Origin: a virus
Length of the DNA: 28,954 nt
Virus record (IMG/VR): IMGVR_UViG_3300027752_000076
Coordinates: 1 to 28,954 of that record
Strand: one strand, 5' to 3'
The stretch's first letter is position 1, and every line of letters starts with the position of its first letter. The notes beneath the pieces are model-generated. The model was given only the letters and a program-made list of their open reading frames with translations, did no database searches and was not told where the DNA came from. A program made the position numbers and the translations under genes. Positions 501-28,361 of this stretch are shown here, piece after piece.

Positions 501-3500
501 TTATTTTAATTCTCTTTTCTTTAATTTTCTACCTCCAAGCTTTCTTTTCTTCATCTTTCTTTTATTTAGTAAGCCTTTTTTCTCCTTCTTGTTAATCAAA
601 CCTAGATCCCACTGACTGTAACCTAAGAATAAAGCTATTGACTGCCACATTTTAGTGTCTTCATCTATAGCGACTCTTATGTTATCAGCTTTTTTAATGG
701 CCCTATCTAGAGGTATATTTGTTACAGCTGACACTATTTGTCCACCAGCATAGTAAGCTGGATTGTCTAGCCCATAACCAGTCATTTTCTCTCTAGTCTT
801 CTTATAGCTAAAAGCTCTACCAGCACTCATTAATTTCCTCATCTTTGATGATAATGGAGGTGATAGATCTAGTGTTTTCTGTGCTGCTTTGGTAAAGTCT
901 GGTCTATCAGAGTCGTTCTGCTTCTTTATTTCAAGCAAAACATTTTTAGAAGTAGAAAGTATGGCACCATATATACCAGAACCTCTTAAAAAAGTATCTA
1001 ACATGCTGTTTGCTACTTTTACTTCTCTTTCTTCTAATTGATCATCATCTTCATCTTCAAATAAACCAGCAAATAAAGCTGATTGTAGTGCAGAGAATAT
1101 AGCATTTTGCACGAAAGTATAATACATCAACTTACTTAGGTTCGTCTTTGGATCCCCACGTCTGTTTATAAGATCCAGGAAGGACTTTTTTGTTAATCTG
1201 GCATATTGCATTGGGGTATTTGCAAAAGCTAGTATAATACGTCCTAATGGACTAGCTTGTTGCTGTGATACTCTATCAGGTCTTGAAGACTGTTGGTTTT
1301 CTTCAGCTGTTTCTTGGAAATCAAGGAAAGCTTGTTTTTTAGCCTCAAGCTCGCTCATACCCTCTTTCTTGTACCTGTTAATTCTATTTCTAATAAAAGA
1401 AGCACCACCCATTGCTATAGCAAAACTATCCGCCATTTGTGTTGGAAGGAAACCAGCTTTTAATATAGCTGCTAAAACAGCTTTCGACTTATTAGTAGCT
1501 GTAGCTGCTGCACTTGCTATTTCATCTGCGTTTATATCGTTCTTTAAACCAGATCTTCTCTGCTTCAAGAAGTCACTATTAAATAACATAGCAAAGTCAG
1601 CCCAAAATTGTTTCTGATTAGCAAATGCCTTAGCTGCAGCAATAGGGCTATTATCTGTCCAGTTAACAAAGTTAACTATAGATAAAGTCTGCAACAACGC
1701 TGATCTAGTGTTTAAGAACATTATAGTACCAACAGAATCGTTTATCCAGTTCATAAACTTGTTAGTTAGCTTATTAGAACCATTAGGTCTATTTCTACCT
1801 GATTTCATTCTGTAAAGCATATCTTCCATTGCTTCTACATAGTTGTCTCCAAAAGCAGCTCTAAGCTTATTCATGTTCTTGTCTTGGAATATAACATCTA
1901 CATTTTCTTGCCATTCTTTAAGAAACTCCTCTCTCTTGGTAGTATTTATCATGTTTACTACATCTGTAGTAAGGGTACCAGCTAGCCAATCTCCATTTGG
2001 ATCAGGATATTTACCACCTAGTATTACTTTAACCTGAGTAGCAAACTTTTTTAAGTCTGGGTTTGCTTCAACTATAGCAACTAATGCTTTTTGATCACTT
2101 TTAGACATTCCTGGTATTTCAGTACCCATCAAGTTCCAAAGATAAACCCTAACAGCTACATCGTTAGTAAAACCTGTTTCATTAACTTTACCAAGACCTT
2201 TTGGCACGTTCTTTATCTTCTTCTTTAGGTTTGATATAGTTCCAGAAACTCTTTCCTTGTAAGCTTCAAAGTCCCTAATACCTTTAGAGAATGGGTCAAA
2301 TAGTTTCTCCTTGTAAAAAGCTCTATGCATATCACCTTGCTTACCCTTACCTGTTATCTTATACAGTAACCCAGCAAAATCATCTGCTGAAGGGGGTATA
2401 AAAAACTTGAATCTTCCTTTCTTAGTACCTCTTACTTTACCCTTAGCGTATGAATACTTTTTCTTAGAGCCTATACCTGTAACATCTTCTATTATGTTGT
2501 TGAACGCTTTACTTGGGTTCTTGCTAAATGATATCTCTTGCTCCGCGTCTAATGCTCTAGCGAAGCTATCTTGTGAAAGATCTATGACTGTATTGTCGAT
2601 GCGATTATCAAGTGATAAATCAGTTTCATTACTTTTAGAGAAATTTATTTCAGATTTTTTACCAGTTTCAGTGTTCATAACAGTAGAATTACCATTTATC
2701 TCACCGTCTTTATCTCTAGGTACTGCTATTGCTAGGTCTTTTGTTGGGTTGTCGTTTCTGTCCCACCATTGAGGTTGAGCTGTAGTGTCTTTGTTACCTA
2801 GGTTTTTAAGAGAAAGTAATCTACCATCTTTAAAAGCTATTTCAAAACCTCTAGGTTGCGCAGGTGTATTGTATCGCCCTGTGTCAAACTCTCCGTAACC
2901 TTTCCAGTCTCTTTTTGATTGCTTAGTTAAAAAAGATTCTCCAGCTGGTTTTTCTTCTACATATATAGTACCTCCTTTAGACCTACCATCGTAAAACTCA
3001 CTTTCAGTCATGTTTGGGTCTTTTGGAAGAAGATATGTATCTAAATAAAATTCCACTTCCACCATTCTACCGTCTTCTCCTCTAAGCATCTCACTACCTT
3101 TGAAGTCACTATCTTGGTATTCTTTCTTAAACCACCCTTTGGTATTGTTTATATCGAAATTCCCTTCAGTATTTTTGTAATCTACTTCACCCGGAGCAAC
3201 TAGAACACGAATATCAAGATCAACGCTTCTGTCAATTGTTACACCACCAATAACTGTTCTAATGCTTACCACCTGCTCTTTTACGCCTACAGGCATTGAG
3301 TTAACTTCTCCTTTCTCTTTTTGCAAGTGTATTCCCCTTTTTATTTGATCTTCCGTGAAAGCTCTTTCAGCATATAATACACACCATGGATTAGACTCTT
3401 TCCCCCAGTGGTTTTCTAGTATTTTCCTAGCCGCTAATTGACCTTGATCATCTGGGTATATGTTAAAAGTTTCAACACCTTCCGGTAGAGATTTTTTATT

Positions 3501-6500
3501 AAACAACTCTGGAACAGTATTAGGGTCTATCCTTGCTTCTTTAACGTCGTCTTTAAAGTTTTCTATTAAAGTGTTAGGATTATCAACACTCATTGGGTCT
3601 ACACCCTTTAATTCCGCTACTCTTATTGCTTCACCTACTTTAGCGGCATCTTCTGGAAATATAACATTACTCTTAGCTATATAGTAAAGTGCAATCTTCT
3701 TATACTTGGATCTTTGATTATCTTTTAATTTAAGCGAATCAACCCAGTTAAAAACAGAGCTTATTTGCTCGTCTATTACTTTGCTATCTAGTTCAGATCT
3801 ATTCTTCTCTAATATAGAAGTGTATTCTTTTCGTATCTTCTTAGAAAACTGTATATCACTTTTACCAGCTCCAACATCAGCTAGTATCTGAGTCTTAGAT
3901 TTAGCTGTATTGATATCCATTTTATTAATCTTGTCTCTAACAATTACGTTAGCAACTTTAGTACCGTATAGCTTAGCCACACCCTTAAGTAACTGACCTA
4001 TATTTCTATCGTACTTGTTGAACTGGTTTTTAGGCGTTATACCCATAGCTTCTTGTAGCTCTAGAACAGCTTCAGGTGTTATCCTACCTCTAAACTGAGG
4101 CTTAAGTCTTCTAACTTGTGTTTGAGACGTAGCACCTTTACTTCTACCTTTAGGTGAGGTTATAGACTTTCTTCTCTTGTACACATCATCACTTTTAGAC
4201 CTCTTGTCTATGTACGGTTCATATAATAGCTTCAACACTAGAGAAGGCGTATTCAAAGAATAACCTTTTGCAGTATCTGAAACATCTATTATTTCACCCG
4301 TTTCGTTTACATTAACCTCATTACCTGCTATGTTAAACTCAGGTAAGGTTTTTATAAAGCTTTTTGTTTCTTCAGACGTTCTAAATAAATCTTGTATACG
4401 ACCAGCTTCAGATTTCTCAGGATATCCATTAACAAATTTCTTTGCGTATGTTAAATTATTCTGAGGGTTGTCTAGCTTCTTTAATGGCACATCGAATATT
4501 ATTTCAGCAACTTTAGCGGCGAACTTATCAGCGACAACTTTAAACGTATAGAAAGAAAACTCTTCTGGTTTAACATCTACGGCATTTTCTATTTCTGTCA
4601 TCTTGTCTTTAACATACCTACTGTTTCTTACGTCGATAAGTTTTTTATCATTCTGAGCAGATACCTCACTGGTTCTTTCAACCTCTTGATTAGCTATTTG
4701 CTTCTTGTATTCTGGATCATCAATCCTACTTAAATAACCATCACCTATTTCTTGCTGATAAAAAGCCTGTCTTTTAGGTCTTATGTTACTGTTTATGAAT
4801 GTAGAGAATTTAGAAGTATAGGGATTATACCTATTAAGTATACCCTCAAAATACTGATCAACAAAAGAAATAGCTTCAGCTCTAGTTATACTTCCCTTTG
4901 CTTCTTTGTAGCCAAGAGCCTCAACAGCAATAGCTTGATATTGCTTAACTAATTCTGCTTCTTCAGCAGCTGTTATAGTTCCTTCTTTGTATTTACCGGC
5001 TAACTTGTTTGCTTCTTTCTTTTTTTTCTTCTTTGCTTTCTTATCCTTGTCTTTGCTTTTAGCTTCTTTTTTATCTTTCTTAACCTCCTTAGGTCCTTCT
5101 TCATCAGCTTTTGCTTGGCTCTTCTTAGCCATTTTTATCTTTAACTCTAGATTAGACTTTAGATTTACAAAATCGTCTTGATCTAACTCATACTCTAGAT
5201 CGTTAAGTGTTTCTAACTCTTGTTCTAAGTCTGCTACCTTGTTTTTAGAAAAAGATACATCGGATTTTGATTGGCTTTTCTTTATGTCACCATCTTTTGA
5301 TAGATTTTGCACTGGTGTATTCATCATCTTACCTTTACTATCTATCGCTTTTTTAGCTGCTTTAGTTAGCTTCCCCTGCTTACCACTCTTATCATACTCT
5401 TTCATGAAGTTGTAAACATCTTGACCACTCTCAAATGATATATTATCAAAACCTTTAGGTTTGAATATACCTACAATAGCACCACCTATCTTTTCCATAG
5501 ATGTTTTATCGTAATTTATCTGACCTTTAGATAAGGCATCTGAAAATACATTTATGTATTCTGTTGCAACTTGACTAGATGAGGTGTACCCTCTGTCTTT
5601 CATTTGCTTATCAACAACTCTCCTTTGTGTAGATGTCATTGCTTTTCTAAACTGTTTAACTATTTTACCTTGAGCCTCCGTATCACCAACCATGACTTTA
5701 AGTATAGGGTGTAATAGCTCATGACTACCAACGTTTATAGCACCTGTATTCCTAGCAACTTCTTTGTTTATGAATATCTTTCTACCAACAGCAAATCCAG
5801 CTATGTTATTCTTAGAGTCTCTAAACTCTTGCTTACCTTCTTCTTTAACGTTTGTTGCTTCGAGAGCTTGTTCTGTCTCAGCTGTAGTTTCATACACTTC
5901 TACTTCTAAACCTCTTTTAGCAGCCTCTTTTCTTGCAAATTCTATGTTTTCACCTAGTCTCATTTCAACTAGCTTGGACTTAGCTGAGTCATACTCTATA
6001 GTGAAACCTTCTTTAGCAGACTCATACTGAGATTCAGATATATCACCTCTTCTTAACTTCTTGTTAAGTTCAGTTATATTAAAAGCAGATGCATCAGCTA
6101 AATCCGTTAAATTATCTATTTCCTTAATTTTATCTGGATCTAAGCTTTCGTATATTTCATTACCATTAACTATGGAGTCTGATATTTCAGATTCTTTAGA
6201 ATCTATTTTACTTTGTAAGCCACGTATTACGGTTGAGTCGGTGGCGCTTTTCATTTGTTTTCTAAGAGCAGATAGTTCATTTATCTTCGTCTCTATACCT
6301 TCACCATCAACAACTGTTCTTATAGTGTTTAGTGCTTTGGAGGAGTATGTACCACCAACCATACCACCACCACCTATAAAACCCTGTACACCTGCTTCCC
6401 AGCCTTCTTGACTAGTTACAGCATCTATAAAAGCTCTACCTGCATTAGCCTCTTCTTCTGTTCCAGCAACTCTACCATACTCTTTGTTCACTTCATCAGC

Positions 6501-7448
6501 GGCATGCTGTAATATTTCAGTAGACATTTCTGTTAAACCTGTAGATAGTACATTCATTGTCGCTCTAGCACTCTTGTTGTATATCATTTTCTCAGCAAGA
6601 TACTTACTACCCATGCCTAATAAACCGGTTGATCCCCCAGCAGTTCCTTTGACAGCACCTTTAGCAGCTTTAAGTACTGTTCCAAGACCAAGCATCTCTA
6701 GACCCTGAGATACAGCAGCCATACCAACAGGTACACTTGTATCAGCTTCCCCTGATTTTATGAGTTCGTCTAGACTCATGTCAAGGTTTTTAGCCTTCAT
6801 TTCATTGAAGGATATATAATTCTCTGCAGCATAATCCATGAAGAAACCAGTAGTTAAAGTACCAGCACCATAAGCTACACTACCTAACATACTAGTAACA
6901 GCGTTTATACTACCAGCTATAATACCCCCGACATCACCATCTTGTACGCTATCTATTATACCTACAGTCCTTTTAGATTGTAGTTTTTCTTCTTTATATT
7001 TCTCTATGTTTTTTAAAGTTGCCTCAGTACCTAGTCCTCGCGTATTCCACGTATCACTTGGATCATAATTGCTTACCCATTCATCTACAGCGTCTTGACC
7101 AAACACCATACTATAAACAGCATTAGTTGCTACATCTAATGAAGAGGACGCACCGTCATCATCAAGCCAAAACTCTTTTACGTCTACTATCTGCTCACCT
7201 AGGTTCCAGAATGAGTTCTTAATAGATTGCCAAGCCGATAAAGATTCTCCCGATGTTGAACCCATATCTTTTGACTCCGCAGTTGGATCCGCACTTACAG
7301 AGTCTTGTGGCTTTCCCGCTCTTCCCTCTAACTCTTCCATAGTCATTGGCCCTTCTTGCGGCTTATAGCCTTCTATTACTGTTTTGATGTTCTGCTCTGA
7401 TTCACCTGCGTCAATCATTTTTTGAACAATACTATTTAATTCGTCCAT
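501..7448 (-). CDS. Giant multi-domain internal virion/ejection protein with HELLH metallopeptidase motif (2315 aa)
   Basis: This is the last and largest of three genes ordered like T7 gp14-gp15-gp16, so an ejected internal virion protein is likely. Its start at 7448 directly follows the preceding stop (TAAATG). Visible parts: Gly/Ala-rich hydrophobic segments at about 166-200, 237-263 and 347-370; an HELLH zinc-peptidase motif at 576-580 (H576, E577, H580) following 'NVGS'; a lysine-rich linker at about 780-820; a patch at about 872-900 (YNPYTSKFSTFINSNIRPKR) resembling sigma-factor region 2; an unrecognised module with NPWC (C1356) and a later WWDRND; and a C-terminal half with hydrophobic stretches near 1900-1930 and 2105-2130, an acidic EDEDDD run and a basic tail. 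A repeated [DE][VI]xFSK motif at 730, 1198, 1600 and 1638 separates these modules. The layout fits phage polyvalent proteins. The peptidase motif is seen, but activity and third ligand are unproven. No transglycosylase motif was recognised. Confidence 0.8.
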   Translation of the reverse strand: MDELNSIVQKMIDAGESEQNIKTVIEGYKPQEGPMTMEELEGRAGKPQDSVSADPTAESKDMGSTSGESLSAWQSIKNSFWNLGEQIVDVKEFWLDDDGASSSLDVATNAVYSMVFGQDAVDEWVSNYDPSDTWNTRGLGTEATLKNIEKYKEEKLQSKRTVGIIDSVQDGDVGGIIAGSINAVTSMLGSVAYGAGTLTTGFFMDYAAENYISFNEMKAKNLDMSLDELIKSGEADTSVPVGMAAVSQGLEMLGLGTVLKAAKGAVKGTAGGSTGLLGMGSKYLAEKMIYNKSARATMNVLSTGLTEMSTEILQHAADEVNKEYGRVAGTEEEANAGRAFIDAVTSQEGWEAGVQGFIGGGGMVGGTYSSKALNTIRTVVDGEGIETKINELSALRKQMKSATDSTVIRGLQSKIDSKESEISDSIVNGNEIYESLDPDKIKEIDNLTDLADASAFNITELNKKLRRGDISESQYESAKEGFTIEYDSAKSKLVEMRLGENIEFARKEAAKRGLEVEVYETTAETEQALEATNVKEEGKQEFRDSKNNIAGFAVGRKIFINKEVARNTGAINVGSHELLHPILKVMVGDTEAQGKIVKQFRKAMTSTQRRVVDKQMKDRGYTSSSQVATEYINVFSDALSKGQINYDKTSMEKIGGAIVGIFKPKGFDNISFESGQDVYNFMKEYDKSGKQGKLTKAAKKAIDSKGKMMNTPVQNLSKDGDIKKSQSKSDVSFSKNKVADLEQELETLNDLEYELDQDDFVNLKSNLELKIKMAKKSQAKADEEGPKEVKKDKKEAKSKDKDKKAKKKKKKEANKLAGKYKEGTITAAEEAELVKQYQAIAVEALGYKEAKGSITRAEAISFVDQYFEGILNRYNPYTSKFSTFINSNIRPKRQAFYQQEIGDGYLSRIDDPEYKKQIANQEVERTSEVSAQNDKKLIDVRNSRYVKDKMTEIENAVDVKPEEFSFYTFKVVADKFAAKVAEIIFDVPLKKLDNPQNNLTYAKKFVNGYPEKSEAGRIQDLFRTSEETKSFIKTLPEFNIAGNEVNVNETGEIIDVSDTAKGYSLNTPSLVLKLLYEPYIDKRSKSDDVYKRRKSITSPKGRSKGATSQTQVRRLKPQFRGRITPEAVLELQEAMGITPKNQFNKYDRNIGQLLKGVAKLYGTKVANVIVRDKINKMDINTAKSKTQILADVGAGKSDIQFSKKIRKEYTSILEKNRSELDSKVIDEQISSVFNWVDSLKLKDNQRSKYKKIALYYIAKSNVIFPEDAAKVGEAIRVAELKGVDPMSVDNPNTLIENFKDDVKEARIDPNTVPELFNKKSLPEGVETFNIYPDDQGQLAARKILENHWGKESNPWCVLYAERAFTEDQIKRGIHLQKEKGEVNSMPVGVKEQVVSIRTVIGGVTIDRSVDLDIRVLVAPGEVDYKNTEGNFDINNTKGWFKKEYQDSDFKGSEMLRGEDGRMVEVEFYLDTYLLPKDPNMTESEFYDGRSKGGTIYVEEKPAGESFLTKQSKRDWKGYGEFDTGRYNTPAQPRGFEIAFKDGRLLSLKNLGNKDTTAQPQWWDRNDNPTKDLAIAVPRDKDGEINGNSTVMNTETGKKSEINFSKSNETDLSLDNRIDNTVIDLSQDSFARALDAEQEISFSKNPSKAFNNIIEDVTGIGSKKKYSYAKGKVRGTKKGRFKFFIPPSADDFAGLLYKITGKGKQGDMHRAFYKEKLFDPFSKGIRDFEAYKERVSGTISNLKKKIKNVPKGLGKVNETGFTNDVAVRVYLWNLMGTEIPGMSKSDQKALVAIVEANPDLKKFATQVKVILGGKYPDPNGDWLAGTLTTDVVNMINTTKREEFLKEWQENVDVIFQDKNMNKLRAAFGDNYVEAMEDMLYRMKSGRNRPNGSNKLTNKFMNWINDSVGTIMFLNTRSALLQTLSIVNFVNWTDNSPIAAAKAFANQKQFWADFAMLFNSDFLKQRRSGLKNDINADEIASAAATATNKSKAVLAAILKAGFLPTQMADSFAIAMGGASFIRNRINRYKKEGMSELEAKKQAFLDFQETAEENQQSSRPDRVSQQQASPLGRIILAFANTPMQYARLTKKSFLDLINRRGDPKTNLSKLMYYTFVQNAIFSALQSALFAGLFEDEDDDQLEEREVKVANSMLDTFLRGSGIYGAILSTSKNVLLEIKKQNDSDRPDFTKAAQKTLDLSPPLSSKMRKLMSAGRAFSYKKTREKMTGYGLDNPAYYAGGQIVSAVTNIPLDRAIKKADNIRVAIDEDTKMWQSIALFLGYSQWDLGLINKKEKKGLLNKRKMKKRKLGGRKLKKRELK

Positions 7449-21656: not shown

Positions 21657-21667
21657 ATTTTAAGTTA
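21657..21667 (-). promoter_or_regulatory. A-rich translation-start leader, copy 1 of TAACTTAAAAT
   Basis: The TAA stop of the scaffold-like gene opens the 11-mer TAACTTAAAAT, followed by an A-rich stretch and the ATG of the capsid gene. The same 11-mer stands before the 431-residue fibre-like gene. It is the only visible start context for the capsid gene, which has no Shine-Dalgarno sequence despite needing very high expression. Confidence 0.35.
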
Positions 21668-22849
21668 TTTTTTTCGTTTAATTCCAAACTTAGAAGTTTT
21701 AGAACCACTAATAGAGCGCACTTTAAATCCACCAGTATCATTGACTTTTTCATGTGTCCCTCTAGGACTCATATCAATGTTTTTTGACTTCTTTATACTA
21801 TCTCTTACGCCATCGGCTTTTCCTTGCTCGTAAAAGTGCTGTGCAATCTTATCAGGATTCATAGCTGTAAATAAAGACTTGTGATAACCCTTAGCATCTG
21901 ACATTTCGTTTTTATCATTCAAGAACTTCTTGACGAAATTACTAATATCGCTTTGGGTAGTCTTTACTTCGTCTGCATTGTTTACTTTAAACCTAAACTT
22001 CTTATCTCCTACAGAATATTCAAAACCTTTGAAATCCTTAGAAAATACATTTTCAGTCTTCTTATTAAATGTAGACACATTATGTTCAGCTATTTTAGTA
22101 GCTTCTTCGTTTTCTTTTTTATAACGATTGAAAAAATCAACCGCTTCTTTTTGTTCAGGTAATAGTCTACTACCACCTTTTATTTCTTCGTAATAATTAT
22201 TTTTTAAACCATCTAGATGACTCTTAGCCTTAGCTAACTCTTCTCTTCTAGCTATCTTTTTTCTTCTTATATCTACATCTTCATCTATTTCTTCATCATA
22301 AGAAAAGTTGTCTTCCATTAAGAAGTCTATATCTTCTCTATCCAGATGAGGTTTAGTATTATTGTAATACTCCATCAATAGTTGGTCTTCGTTTAAGTCA
22401 TCGTAGTTTTGATTTAACTTAACATAATCTTCTAAAGTCCCGTTAGTTTCATTCATGAAATCAACAACCTTCTGTATATTTTCTGGTAATTCAGCTCCAG
22501 TAACTTGCTCGTATTCTACAGCTTCTTGAATTTCCTCTGCTAGGTCTTGAACCTGCTCAACAACTTCTTCATCTGTTATCTCCTCTATAACGGACTCAAC
22601 AGTGTCTTGTAATACAGCTTCTTCAGCTGGAACATCTACTGCCTGTTCTATTATTTCCTCAACAACTTCCTGCTTTGGTTGCTCTACAACTTCCTGTTGT
22701 ATTTGTTCAGGTTCTTTTTTATCTTCTGACTTGTTAAGTTCTGATAAATCAACCTTTATTACGCCATCATCAAATGACATTGGATTATTCTCTACTTCCG
22801 CTGTAGCTTTTTCAACTACCTCGGTTACTTCTTGTGTTTTTTCTGACAT
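21665..22849 (-). CDS. Scaffolding-like protein (394 aa)
   Basis: The protein lies between portal and major capsid, the usual place of a scaffold. Residues 1-125 are strongly acidic and rich in Glu, Val and Gln, and probably extended or coiled-coil. A helical middle has 'NGTLEDYVKLNQNYDDLNED' and 'HLDREDIDFLMEDNFSYDEE', segments I remember from this position in marine phage genomes. The C-terminus is basic (KTSKFGIKRKK), as expected for a scaffold tail that binds capsid. No protease or membrane motif is visible. It starts 32 bases after the portal gene. A scaffold role is inferred from position and charge pattern; a minor head protein is the main alternative. Confidence 0.65.
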   Translation of the reverse strand: MSEKTQEVTEVVEKATAEVENNPMSFDDGVIKVDLSELNKSEDKKEPEQIQQEVVEQPKQEVVEEIIEQAVDVPAEEAVLQDTVESVIEEITDEEVVEQVQDLAEEIQEAVEYEQVTGAELPENIQKVVDFMNETNGTLEDYVKLNQNYDDLNEDQLLMEYYNNTKPHLDREDIDFLMEDNFSYDEEIDEDVDIRRKKIARREELAKAKSHLDGLKNNYYEEIKGGSRLLPEQKEAVDFFNRYKKENEEATKIAEHNVSTFNKKTENVFSKDFKGFEYSVGDKKFRFKVNNADEVKTTQSDISNFVKKFLNDKNEMSDAKGYHKSLFTAMNPDKIAQHFYEQGKADGVRDSIKKSKNIDMSPRGTHEKVNDTGGFKVRSISGSKTSKFGIKRKK

Positions 22850-27533: not shown

Positions 27534-27811
27534 TTCTTCTTAGATCTTTTTTCAGCAAAACCAGTAAAACTTTTTTCCTCAACCTGTTCCTTAGGTTTAT
27601 TGTTTAACAAGTCTTCTTCTTCTTGTATCCTACTCAATATCTCAAATGCATCAAATATTGCTAATTTTTTAGTAGCAGCGGCATTTTTTAGCTTATCAGC
27701 TGAAAGGTCGTCTCCAGAATCCACTATAGCTTCTTCAGCGACTTTTATTAATTCCTCAACTGCTTTCTGTCCAGCTAGGATTATATTCTTCTTCGTTTCC
27801 TGTACGTTCAT
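27530..27811 (-). CDS. Small helical protein before terminase, possible small terminase subunit (93 aa)
   Basis: The protein is almost entirely helical, with 'ADKLKNAAATKKLAIFDAFE' in the centre and a basic C-terminal tail (FTGFAEKRSKKK). It overlaps the terminase start by ATGA, and its own start lies 56 bases inside the preceding gene, with no later methionine to use instead. Small helical proteins directly ahead of terL are often small terminase subunits that recognise DNA ends, and a basic tail would fit, but I see no clear helix-turn-helix. I remember similar proteins in this place in marine phage genomes. The small-terminase role is inferred from position only. Confidence 0.6.
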   Translation of the reverse strand: MNVQETKKNIILAGQKAVEELIKVAEEAIVDSGDDLSADKLKNAAATKKLAIFDAFEILSRIQEEEDLLNNKPKEQVEEKSFTGFAEKRSKKK

Positions 27812-28361
27812 ATTTAATTGTTATTGAAGTGGTTGGTACTCTATATAATCTTTGAGTACCTATAATAAACTCATATTCAGAGCTTGGCCCGAATCCAACT
27901 AAGTCTCCTTCACTTAGTCCATTTAACTCAGGATCTTTTATCTTTAAAATACCAACTAGTTGTTTCTCAAAATAGCTAGAAAACATTTTAGTTTCTTTTA
28001 TTGGTTTAATTAGATTAAAACCTTCGCAAGATACCCAATCTGTATTTTTTGCTTTTTTATATGCATACACTTGGTTGGGTTGAACAATATACATTCCATC
28101 ACCATAATAACTCTTGCTGTTTTTTTCTTCTCCTCTTATATCTCTAAAACGCCTAAAAACATTGTGGTGCACTACCACCTTGTCACCAACACTTATTCCC
28201 GTTTTATTCTTATACGGCTCATAAACCACTTCAGCTATTCTGCTAACATAGTTGTGATTCTCTAGCTCCGTATTTAATATCAATTCTTCGCCTTCGATAG
28301 ACTTCTTGTTATTATATCTACCATCAACTGTTTTTACTACAAAGTCTAAATAACCTTTCAT
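27756..28361 (-). CDS. GroES-like co-chaperonin-type protein (201 aa)
   Basis: The segment 'NHNYVSRIAEVVYEP' followed by 'GISVGDKVVVHHNVFR', a polar stretch and 'IVQPNQVYAYKK' has the order of a GroES-like fold: a strand with a small turn, a GDKVV strand, a variable mobile-loop-like region, then a final strand. A second half (LVGILKIKDPEL ... LSEGDLVGFGPSSEYEFIIG) looks like a partial repeat of the same fold. If real, it would be a phage co-chaperonin acting with host GroEL to fold capsid proteins, as T4 gp31 does. It starts at TAATG, overlapping the 72-residue gene's stop by one base. The fold assignment is by pattern, and function is inferred. Confidence 0.5.
   Translation of the reverse strand: MKGYLDFVVKTVDGRYNNKKSIEGEELILNTELENHNYVSRIAEVVYEPYKNKTGISVGDKVVVHHNVFRRFRDIRGEEKNSKSYYGDGMYIVQPNQVYAYKKAKNTDWVSCEGFNLIKPIKETKMFSSYFEKQLVGILKIKDPELNGLSEGDLVGFGPSSEYEFIIGTQRLYRVPTTSITIKYERTGNEEEYNPSWTESS

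Follow-up and report, generated by a model that had tools for sequence, protein, structure and literature searches.

Why should a single phage protein carry the same short peptide four times, at distant points along its chain? The question is raised by the window analysed here, the complete virus record IMGVR_UViG_3300027752_000076 of 28,954 bases from an uncultured marine phage, in which the last large gene of the structural block encodes a giant modular protein containing four copies of the hexapeptide [DE][VI]xFSK, from here on called tags. In a family of related giants the tags were found at the joins between modules, their spelling is shared by the joints of one protein and held by selection at the protein level, and the residues that define a zincin metallopeptidase module of the same chain are invariant in 71 members. 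From these results we infer that the tags are read by a protease, that this protease is the zincin, where and when it would cut, and a location in the virion. The giant would then be a polyprotein with tags read by one co-evolving reader, most likely the built-in zincin cutting them, a proposal that is judged on the sequences to be evenly poised between right and wrong.

The four tags of the window protein

The modules and tags of the protein, in window coordinates, are as follows.

501..7448, minus strand: giant modular protein, 2315 residues
6012..7448, minus strand: N-terminal region, residues 1-479, tag-free; homologous regions in 20 of 141 giants including that of the window
5274..6011, minus strand: zincin metallopeptidase module, residues 480-725; HExxH at 576-580 (5709-5723), third ligand Glu630 (5559-5561)
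5244..5261, minus strand: seam tag 1, DVSFSK, residues 730-735; follows the zincin domain
3858..5243, minus strand: module 2, residues 736-1197; in 15 of 141 giants including that of the window (alignment A7)
3840..3857, minus strand: seam tag 2, DIQFSK, residues 1198-1203; opens module 3
2652..3839, minus strand: module 3, residues 1204-1599; in 7 of 141 giants including that of the window (alignment A8)
2634..2651, minus strand: seam tag 3, EINFSK, residues 1600-1605; kept in L001 and L002
2538..2633, minus strand: short spacer, residues 1606-1637, between tags 3 and 4
2520..2537, minus strand: seam tag 4, EISFSK, residues 1638-1643; start of C-terminal module homology
504..2519, minus strand: conserved C-terminal module, residues 1644-2315; at least 581 relatives in IMG/VR

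The original prediction, made from the DNA of the window alone, had placed the four motifs at residues 730, 1198, 1600 and 1638, with K-S preceding three of them, and both statements are correct; of the range given for them, 2523-5261, the upper limit stands and the lower one is 3 bases off, tag 4 occupying 2520-2537. Their placement at module borders was likewise borne out, as tag 1 follows the zincin, tag 2 opens a module that recurs in other giants together with its tag, and tag 4 opens the C-terminal module. The latter accounts for 29% of the protein and is not the 'long C-terminal half' that had been described, and the label 'sigma-like' given to module 2 has no backing in Pfam or PDB sequences, where no convincing match to this module was obtained. 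PDB sequences also contain no convincing relative of the zincin or of the C-terminal module, and a Pfam scan of the whole giant gave nothing beyond a chance-level DUF6040, with no named polyvalent domain (LPD, ART-PolyVal etc.).

Four copies in one open reading frame (ORF) of this length compare with 0.013 expected from composition, a looser form of the tag pattern reached a maximum of 2 copies in 5000 shuffles of the window protein, and a six-frame scan of the window yielded no [DE][VI]xFSK beyond the four. A fifth FSK, at residue 1720 (LFDPFSKG), is not of the tag type. In the AlphaFold2 model, residues 725-745, which include tag 1, have a predicted local distance difference test score (pLDDT) below 50, and this stretch is probably a flexible linker; a modelled seam of the giant L096 falls in a confidence dip between domains. 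All four tags are kept in the close relatives L001 and L002 (88-90% identical), with R for K in one copy of L001. L004 has a C-terminal module with 71% identity to that of the window but only 28% in the N-terminal and zincin part; its sequence near tags 1 and 4 is EEQFSK and LLQLSR, respectively.

Enrichment of the tag in a family of giants

Relatives were fetched from IMG/VR with the C-terminal module as the query; the module is present in at least 581 contig stretches of that collection. Three batches provided 81, 60 and 94 distinct giants (235 in total, with the window and six further loci included); duplicate loci were removed before counting (17 of 77 and 35 of 129), six refetched loci of batch 1 were counted once, and the cut locus L003 was left out. 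A tblastn search of 50,697 GenBank phage records gave no match for the whole window protein, for the L096 stretch running from the seam through the HAD-type module to the C-terminal module, or for the C-terminal module of L153. A prokaryote genome collection contained 16 matching loci, all in metagenome-assembled genomes and several of them in Bacteroidota.

In batch 1, of all tripeptides with an expectation above 3, FSK had the highest z-score for over-representation, in 185 distinct contexts versus 50.8 expected, I or V being favoured at position -2 and Q at -1. The form [DE][VI]xFSK proposed at the outset holds in the close group of the window, and the family-wide form is hydrophobic-x-F-S-[KR]. 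Written as [VIL].FS[KR], it was counted through the last joint 110, 69 and 86 times in batches 1-3 versus 11.9, 8.3 and 13.5 expected, an over-representation of 6-9 times across the 235 giants; without the last joint the counts are 77, 46 and 58 versus 11.5, 8.1 and 13.1. The C-terminal module was left out of these counts because it holds an FSK site that is not at a seam; with it included, they become 130, 75 and 95 versus 17.0, 11.9 and 19.3. The 356 other ORFs of the batch-1 loci show no enrichment (8 versus 7.0 expected). Up to the last joint, 68 giants have one tag, 41 two and 32 three or more.

It might be argued that the tags arose by chance or are ordinary conserved domain ends, and the tag before the C-terminal module is indeed also inherited with that module. 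Against this stand, besides the number of copies in the window protein, the replicated enrichment, which is also found when the last joint is set aside, and the match within proteins across non-homologous joints described below. Already refuted by the replicated batches, this reading is hardly credible.

Tags at the borders of exchangeable modules

Tag positions were compared with the boundaries of BLAST homology in 67 non-redundant giants, with the tags masked and the C-terminal module, which had served as the fetch query, removed. A homology boundary was no more than 15 residues away for 51 of the 63 tags, versus 27.8 ± 3.7 for rotated positions; the observed value was reached in 0 of 300 rotations, and none of the control motifs (LS[KR], F[KR]S, FT[KR] and similar) gave p<0.05 in the same test. 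The tags stand mostly at module ends (homology ends, 28 versus 11.3; starts, 27 versus 19.1). A HAD-type module, found in 125 of the 141 giants searched, is often flanked by tags, as in L096 (NAINFSRTIHKPKGITVLDFDDTL...VQQAKVKFSK), and the distributions of modules 2 and 3 given above are separate from that of the zincin (109 of 141).

Four distant giants (L078, L107, L115 and L142) contain partial homologues of module 3. Those of L107, L115 and L142 open with a tag of the window type and that of L078 has the tag replaced, and in L107 the module directly upstream is a kinase/HAD module instead of module 2. Alignment of homologues, which had been suggested as a check on the original prediction, came out in its favour, the motif persisting while the flanking modules get exchanged. 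By these comparisons the giants appear to consist of interchangeable modules, with a short, repeated tag as the link between them. In two of them an AAA_33/zeta-toxin-like kinase match lies between two tags (L107, residues approx. 2410-2811; L115, residues approx. 2405-2791), and in L107 this match falls inside the HAD module, in the manner of a polynucleotide kinase-phosphatase-like unit.

The clustering of homology boundaries at tags would also be expected if the tags were linkers that aid DNA recombination between modules, and L062 (match 3384-5396; KLKFSKGPVKKVLDVIDVKGKVQQAKIKFSK), which looks like a fusion of two modules at a tag in which the greater part of the HAD module has been lost, goes in the same direction. 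The spelling of the tags, and the codons in which it is written, bear on this point.

One spelling per protein

The central new result is that each giant has one spelling for its seams. The 26 residues before the HAD module were compared with the 16 after it, these sites being mutually non-homologous, and near-identical seams were removed before permutation (106 reduced to 70, 109 to 80, and 61 to 48 and 40). The two seams match within a protein (19.83 versus 15.99 ± 0.41 permuted, p=5e-5, n=70), and the third seam, after the zincin, matches both the last (18.16 versus 16.42, n=80, p=5e-5) and the first (19.7 versus 17.49, n=63, p=5e-5). With a plan fixed before batch 3 was examined, the match was replicated (18.27 versus 15.18, p=5e-5, n=48), also in the subset whose first seam is less than 50% identical to any earlier one (18.0 versus 15.11, n=40), and the pooled match survives permutation inside clades of the C-terminal module (p=5e-5, n=108). 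A match is also seen among the 30 proteins in which the last seam contains no FS (20.17 versus 14.94, p=5e-5). Among the examples are SIKFDQ, SIKYT and SIKYDQ in L045, IKNSK twice in L058, FSET three times in L034, and KKFRA, KKYRA and KKYRS in L130, so that the dialects across the family comprise FSK, FSET, SIKY[DT], KK[FY]R and IKNSK. The sites of one giant share a consensus, as do those of self-processed viral polyproteins.

Serine is encoded at the tags by both TCN (56) and AGY (51) codons, and where two seams share an amino acid the same codon is used in 82 of 142 cases (76.5 expected) and, in batch 3, in 39 of 80 (41.6 expected). Since this agreement is at chance level, the spelling is held by selection at the protein level and not by recent DNA copying. 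The use of both serine codon classes, the chance-level agreement between two seams of one gene and the concerted change of spelling at distant joints all speak against linkers for recombination, a reading that is already disfavoured and very improbable. Of the two roles offered in the original prediction, the DNA-level recombination seam is not supported. A site for a protease accounts best for a spelling that is shared by the joints of a protein and changes between phages. Shared spelling together with chance-level codons points to one reader for all joints of a protein.

Such a reader need not be a protease. The tags may be docking motifs for a common partner (portal, core, chaperone or the C-terminal module itself), with the long chain packed or threaded module by module, and a shared partner would also predict concerted spelling in each protein; those tags that were modelled fall in joints that are flexible or of low confidence, which is in keeping with this role. 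However, docking requires neither the position at module joins nor the placement downstream of the zincin motif, both of which are observed, and no partner has been identified. Docking is regarded as unlikely, although it is a serious rival.

The zincin as the candidate reader

According to the proposal, the giant would be a polyprotein-like ejection or 'polyvalent' protein in which an N-terminal region, the zincin, exchangeable cargo modules and the conserved C-terminal module follow one another, joined by short flexible tags. A single reader would recognize all tags of one protein and co-evolve with them, leaving each phage with its own spelling; the likeliest reader is the zincin of the same chain. 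By cutting the tags, either inside the head or once the protein has been ejected, it would set the modules free. For the window protein the predicted pieces are residues 1 to approx. 733, approx. 734-1201, approx. 1202-1603, a spacer of approx. 38 residues, and approx. 1642-2315.

The zincin is the natural candidate because of its near-universal presence, intact catalytic residues and position. In batches 1-3, respectively 76 of 81, 54 of 60 and 88 of 94 giants have an HExxH motif ahead of the C-terminal module; among the 17 giants without it, 13 run off the contig or locus end, three are other short ORFs and one is full length. H576, E577, H580 and E630 (window numbering) are invariant in 71 aligned zincins, which were picked by profile match. 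Tags upstream versus downstream of HExxH number 2 versus 106, 1 versus 65 and 1 versus 80 in batches 1-3, when position alone predicts 31-44% upstream. The AlphaFold2 model of the zincin domain has a mean pLDDT of 82 and gave no Foldseek match in the PDB at E<=1e-3; M34-like zincins (PPEP/Zmp1, lethal-factor type fold) appeared in weak VIA rows only (Z 3.3-5.5), and in a viral structure library the best matches include polyvalent-annotated phage proteins.

In batches 1-2 a partial Mantel correlation linked seam spelling to the zincin (r=0.118, p=0.0002, with 15 of 70 proteins lacking an alignable zincin left out; r=0.099 with a later region set). A covariation of zincin type with the loss of FS at the last seam was striking post hoc in the discovery batch and was dropped after the test batch. 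In three giants (L049, L110 and L175) the zincin is of an HEI[SM]H type and the last seam is AK[RL]S-like, [ND]PS taking the place of FSK.

Several observations weigh against a polyprotein read by its own zincin. No [VIL].FS[KR] at all is present up to the last joint in 94 of the 235 giants, and tags are missing from the sister phages L010, L011 and L016, which do have HExxH. The full-length giant without HExxH, L271 (2720 residues), has HDAFH in its place and no zincin profile match, and keeps matching FSES-type seams on either side of its HAD module. In the test batch the loss of FS at the last seam could not be predicted from the class of zincin, being scored in 4 of 8 giants with other zincins versus 14 of 46 (p=0.42), three of those 14 (L105, L106 and L127), scored as FS-lost, carrying FSK or FSR further upstream. 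The correlation of seam with zincin was not replicated in batch 3 (partial Mantel r=0.026, p=0.22), where the region after the zincin correlates instead (r=0.094, p=0.005), and in the pooled batches other regions correlate with seam spelling too, more weakly. As to the spelling itself, an upstream control segment showed a slight excess (14.97 versus 14.25, p=0.025), and control segments elsewhere gave p=0.07 for the third seam, 0.01 pooled and 0.03 in the subset without FS; in batch 3 they gave p=0.09 and 0.16. This excess, which is much below the seam signal, is presumably due to composition. Finally, the virion RNA polymerase (vRNAP) of phage N4, which shares with the window giant its great size and an HExxH zincin domain and is ejected, is packaged unprocessed, unlike what is proposed here, according to Iyer et al. 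2017 (PMC5512222), who also cite the processing of P1 DdrB.

Some of these points would be accommodated if the tags were cut by another protease of phage or host, for instance an unrecognised prohead protease: in the replication batch the spelling of the seams showed no specific link to the zincin, and L271 retains matching seams. In the head maturation of phages SPN3US and T4 several of the proteins that are cut carry one short consensus, and a separate protease does the cutting. A gene of the window encoding 394 residues (21665-22849), between the portal and a head structural gene, is without Pfam or PHROG match and could be anything, a scaffold or a protease included. Unlike in SPN3US and T4, no protease, prohead protease included, was recognised when the other window proteins were scanned against Pfam and PHROG, and HExxH is nearly universal in the giants and almost always ahead of the tags. 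Cutting by another protease is considered less likely still than docking, and among the readings that invoke a protease, cleavage by the zincin appears from the sequences to be the more probable one.

In its full form, the proposal would add to the tailed double-stranded DNA phages a family with true polyproteins, each having its own zincin, up to five or six cut sites, a phage-specific dialect that co-evolves with its reader, and modules that can be swapped only with respelled tags; taken as a whole, this is held to be possible, at somewhat less than an even chance. Cutting at the tags, should it occur, would account for the delivery of separate effectors by one chain of 2000-4000 residues, and would make available a family of site-specific proteases that differ naturally in dialect. 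From the rule of one spelling per protein, module borders can be predicted in hundreds of uncultured marine phages.

Relation to polyvalent proteins and other phage giants

Polyvalent proteins were described by Iyer et al. 2017 (PMC5512222), who proposed self-processing by their zincins and drew the analogy with polyproteins. They resemble the window giant in being huge phage proteins made of disparate, exchangeable modules, and their zincins in having HExxH and a Glu in a later helix; the window protein has several unrelated domains and an HExxH zincin with a third-ligand Glu. Since no named polyvalent Pfam domain was matched, it is best classed, on its sequence, as working like a polyvalent protein and not as a Pfam-defined member. 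A repeated cut-site motif is not reported for polyvalent proteins in the passages and peptidase section of that article, nor was a multi-joint site motif found in the literature searched, and the spelling of tags phage by phage is new here. Without a named repeated site the 2017 idea was, to judge from those passages, not directly testable, and the tags now provide candidate sites at several joints.

A similar tag is found in proteins unrelated to the window giant. The motif NPDIRFSR, searched for as an illustration and not as a test, is present in 8 viral contig stretches from 7 contigs (L305-L312), always in frame in ORFs of 547-2449 residues with ART-PolyVal, LPD3 or LPD38 domains. In 4 of 5 scanned proteins DIRFSR stands 6-7 residues beyond the point where the ART-PolyVal match ends, the match of L305 being below the Pfam cut-off. 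In L307, which has two tags, PBECR5, LPD3 and HExxH, the ART-PolyVal match comes in two stretches and a tag precedes LPD3. HExxH is found in only one of the eight ORFs, several of which are cut. These sequences suggest that such tags may be more widespread.

Lineage and neighbouring genes

By terminase and portal homology, the window belongs to the lineage of the Cellulophaga/Flavobacterium/Tenacibaculum podoviruses, with terminase matches in 87 of the 50,697 phage records and 87 portal matches. In this lineage, gp123 of phi18:3, the product of its last structural gene, is annotated as a virion protein from tandem mass spectrometry proteomics, and by analogy the window giant would also be carried in the virion and injected. 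The last structural genes of the Cellulophaga phages phi18:3 and phi38:1, of Flavobacterium phage elemo and of Tenacibaculum phage Gundel_1 show hardly any similarity to the window giant and contain no [VIL].FS[KR]; Maribacter phage Panino has two, in a different context. Next to the terminase gene of the window lies a gene for a GroES-like co-chaperonin (27756-28361; PHROG match, E 1.3e-17), and GroEL is also present in sister phages.

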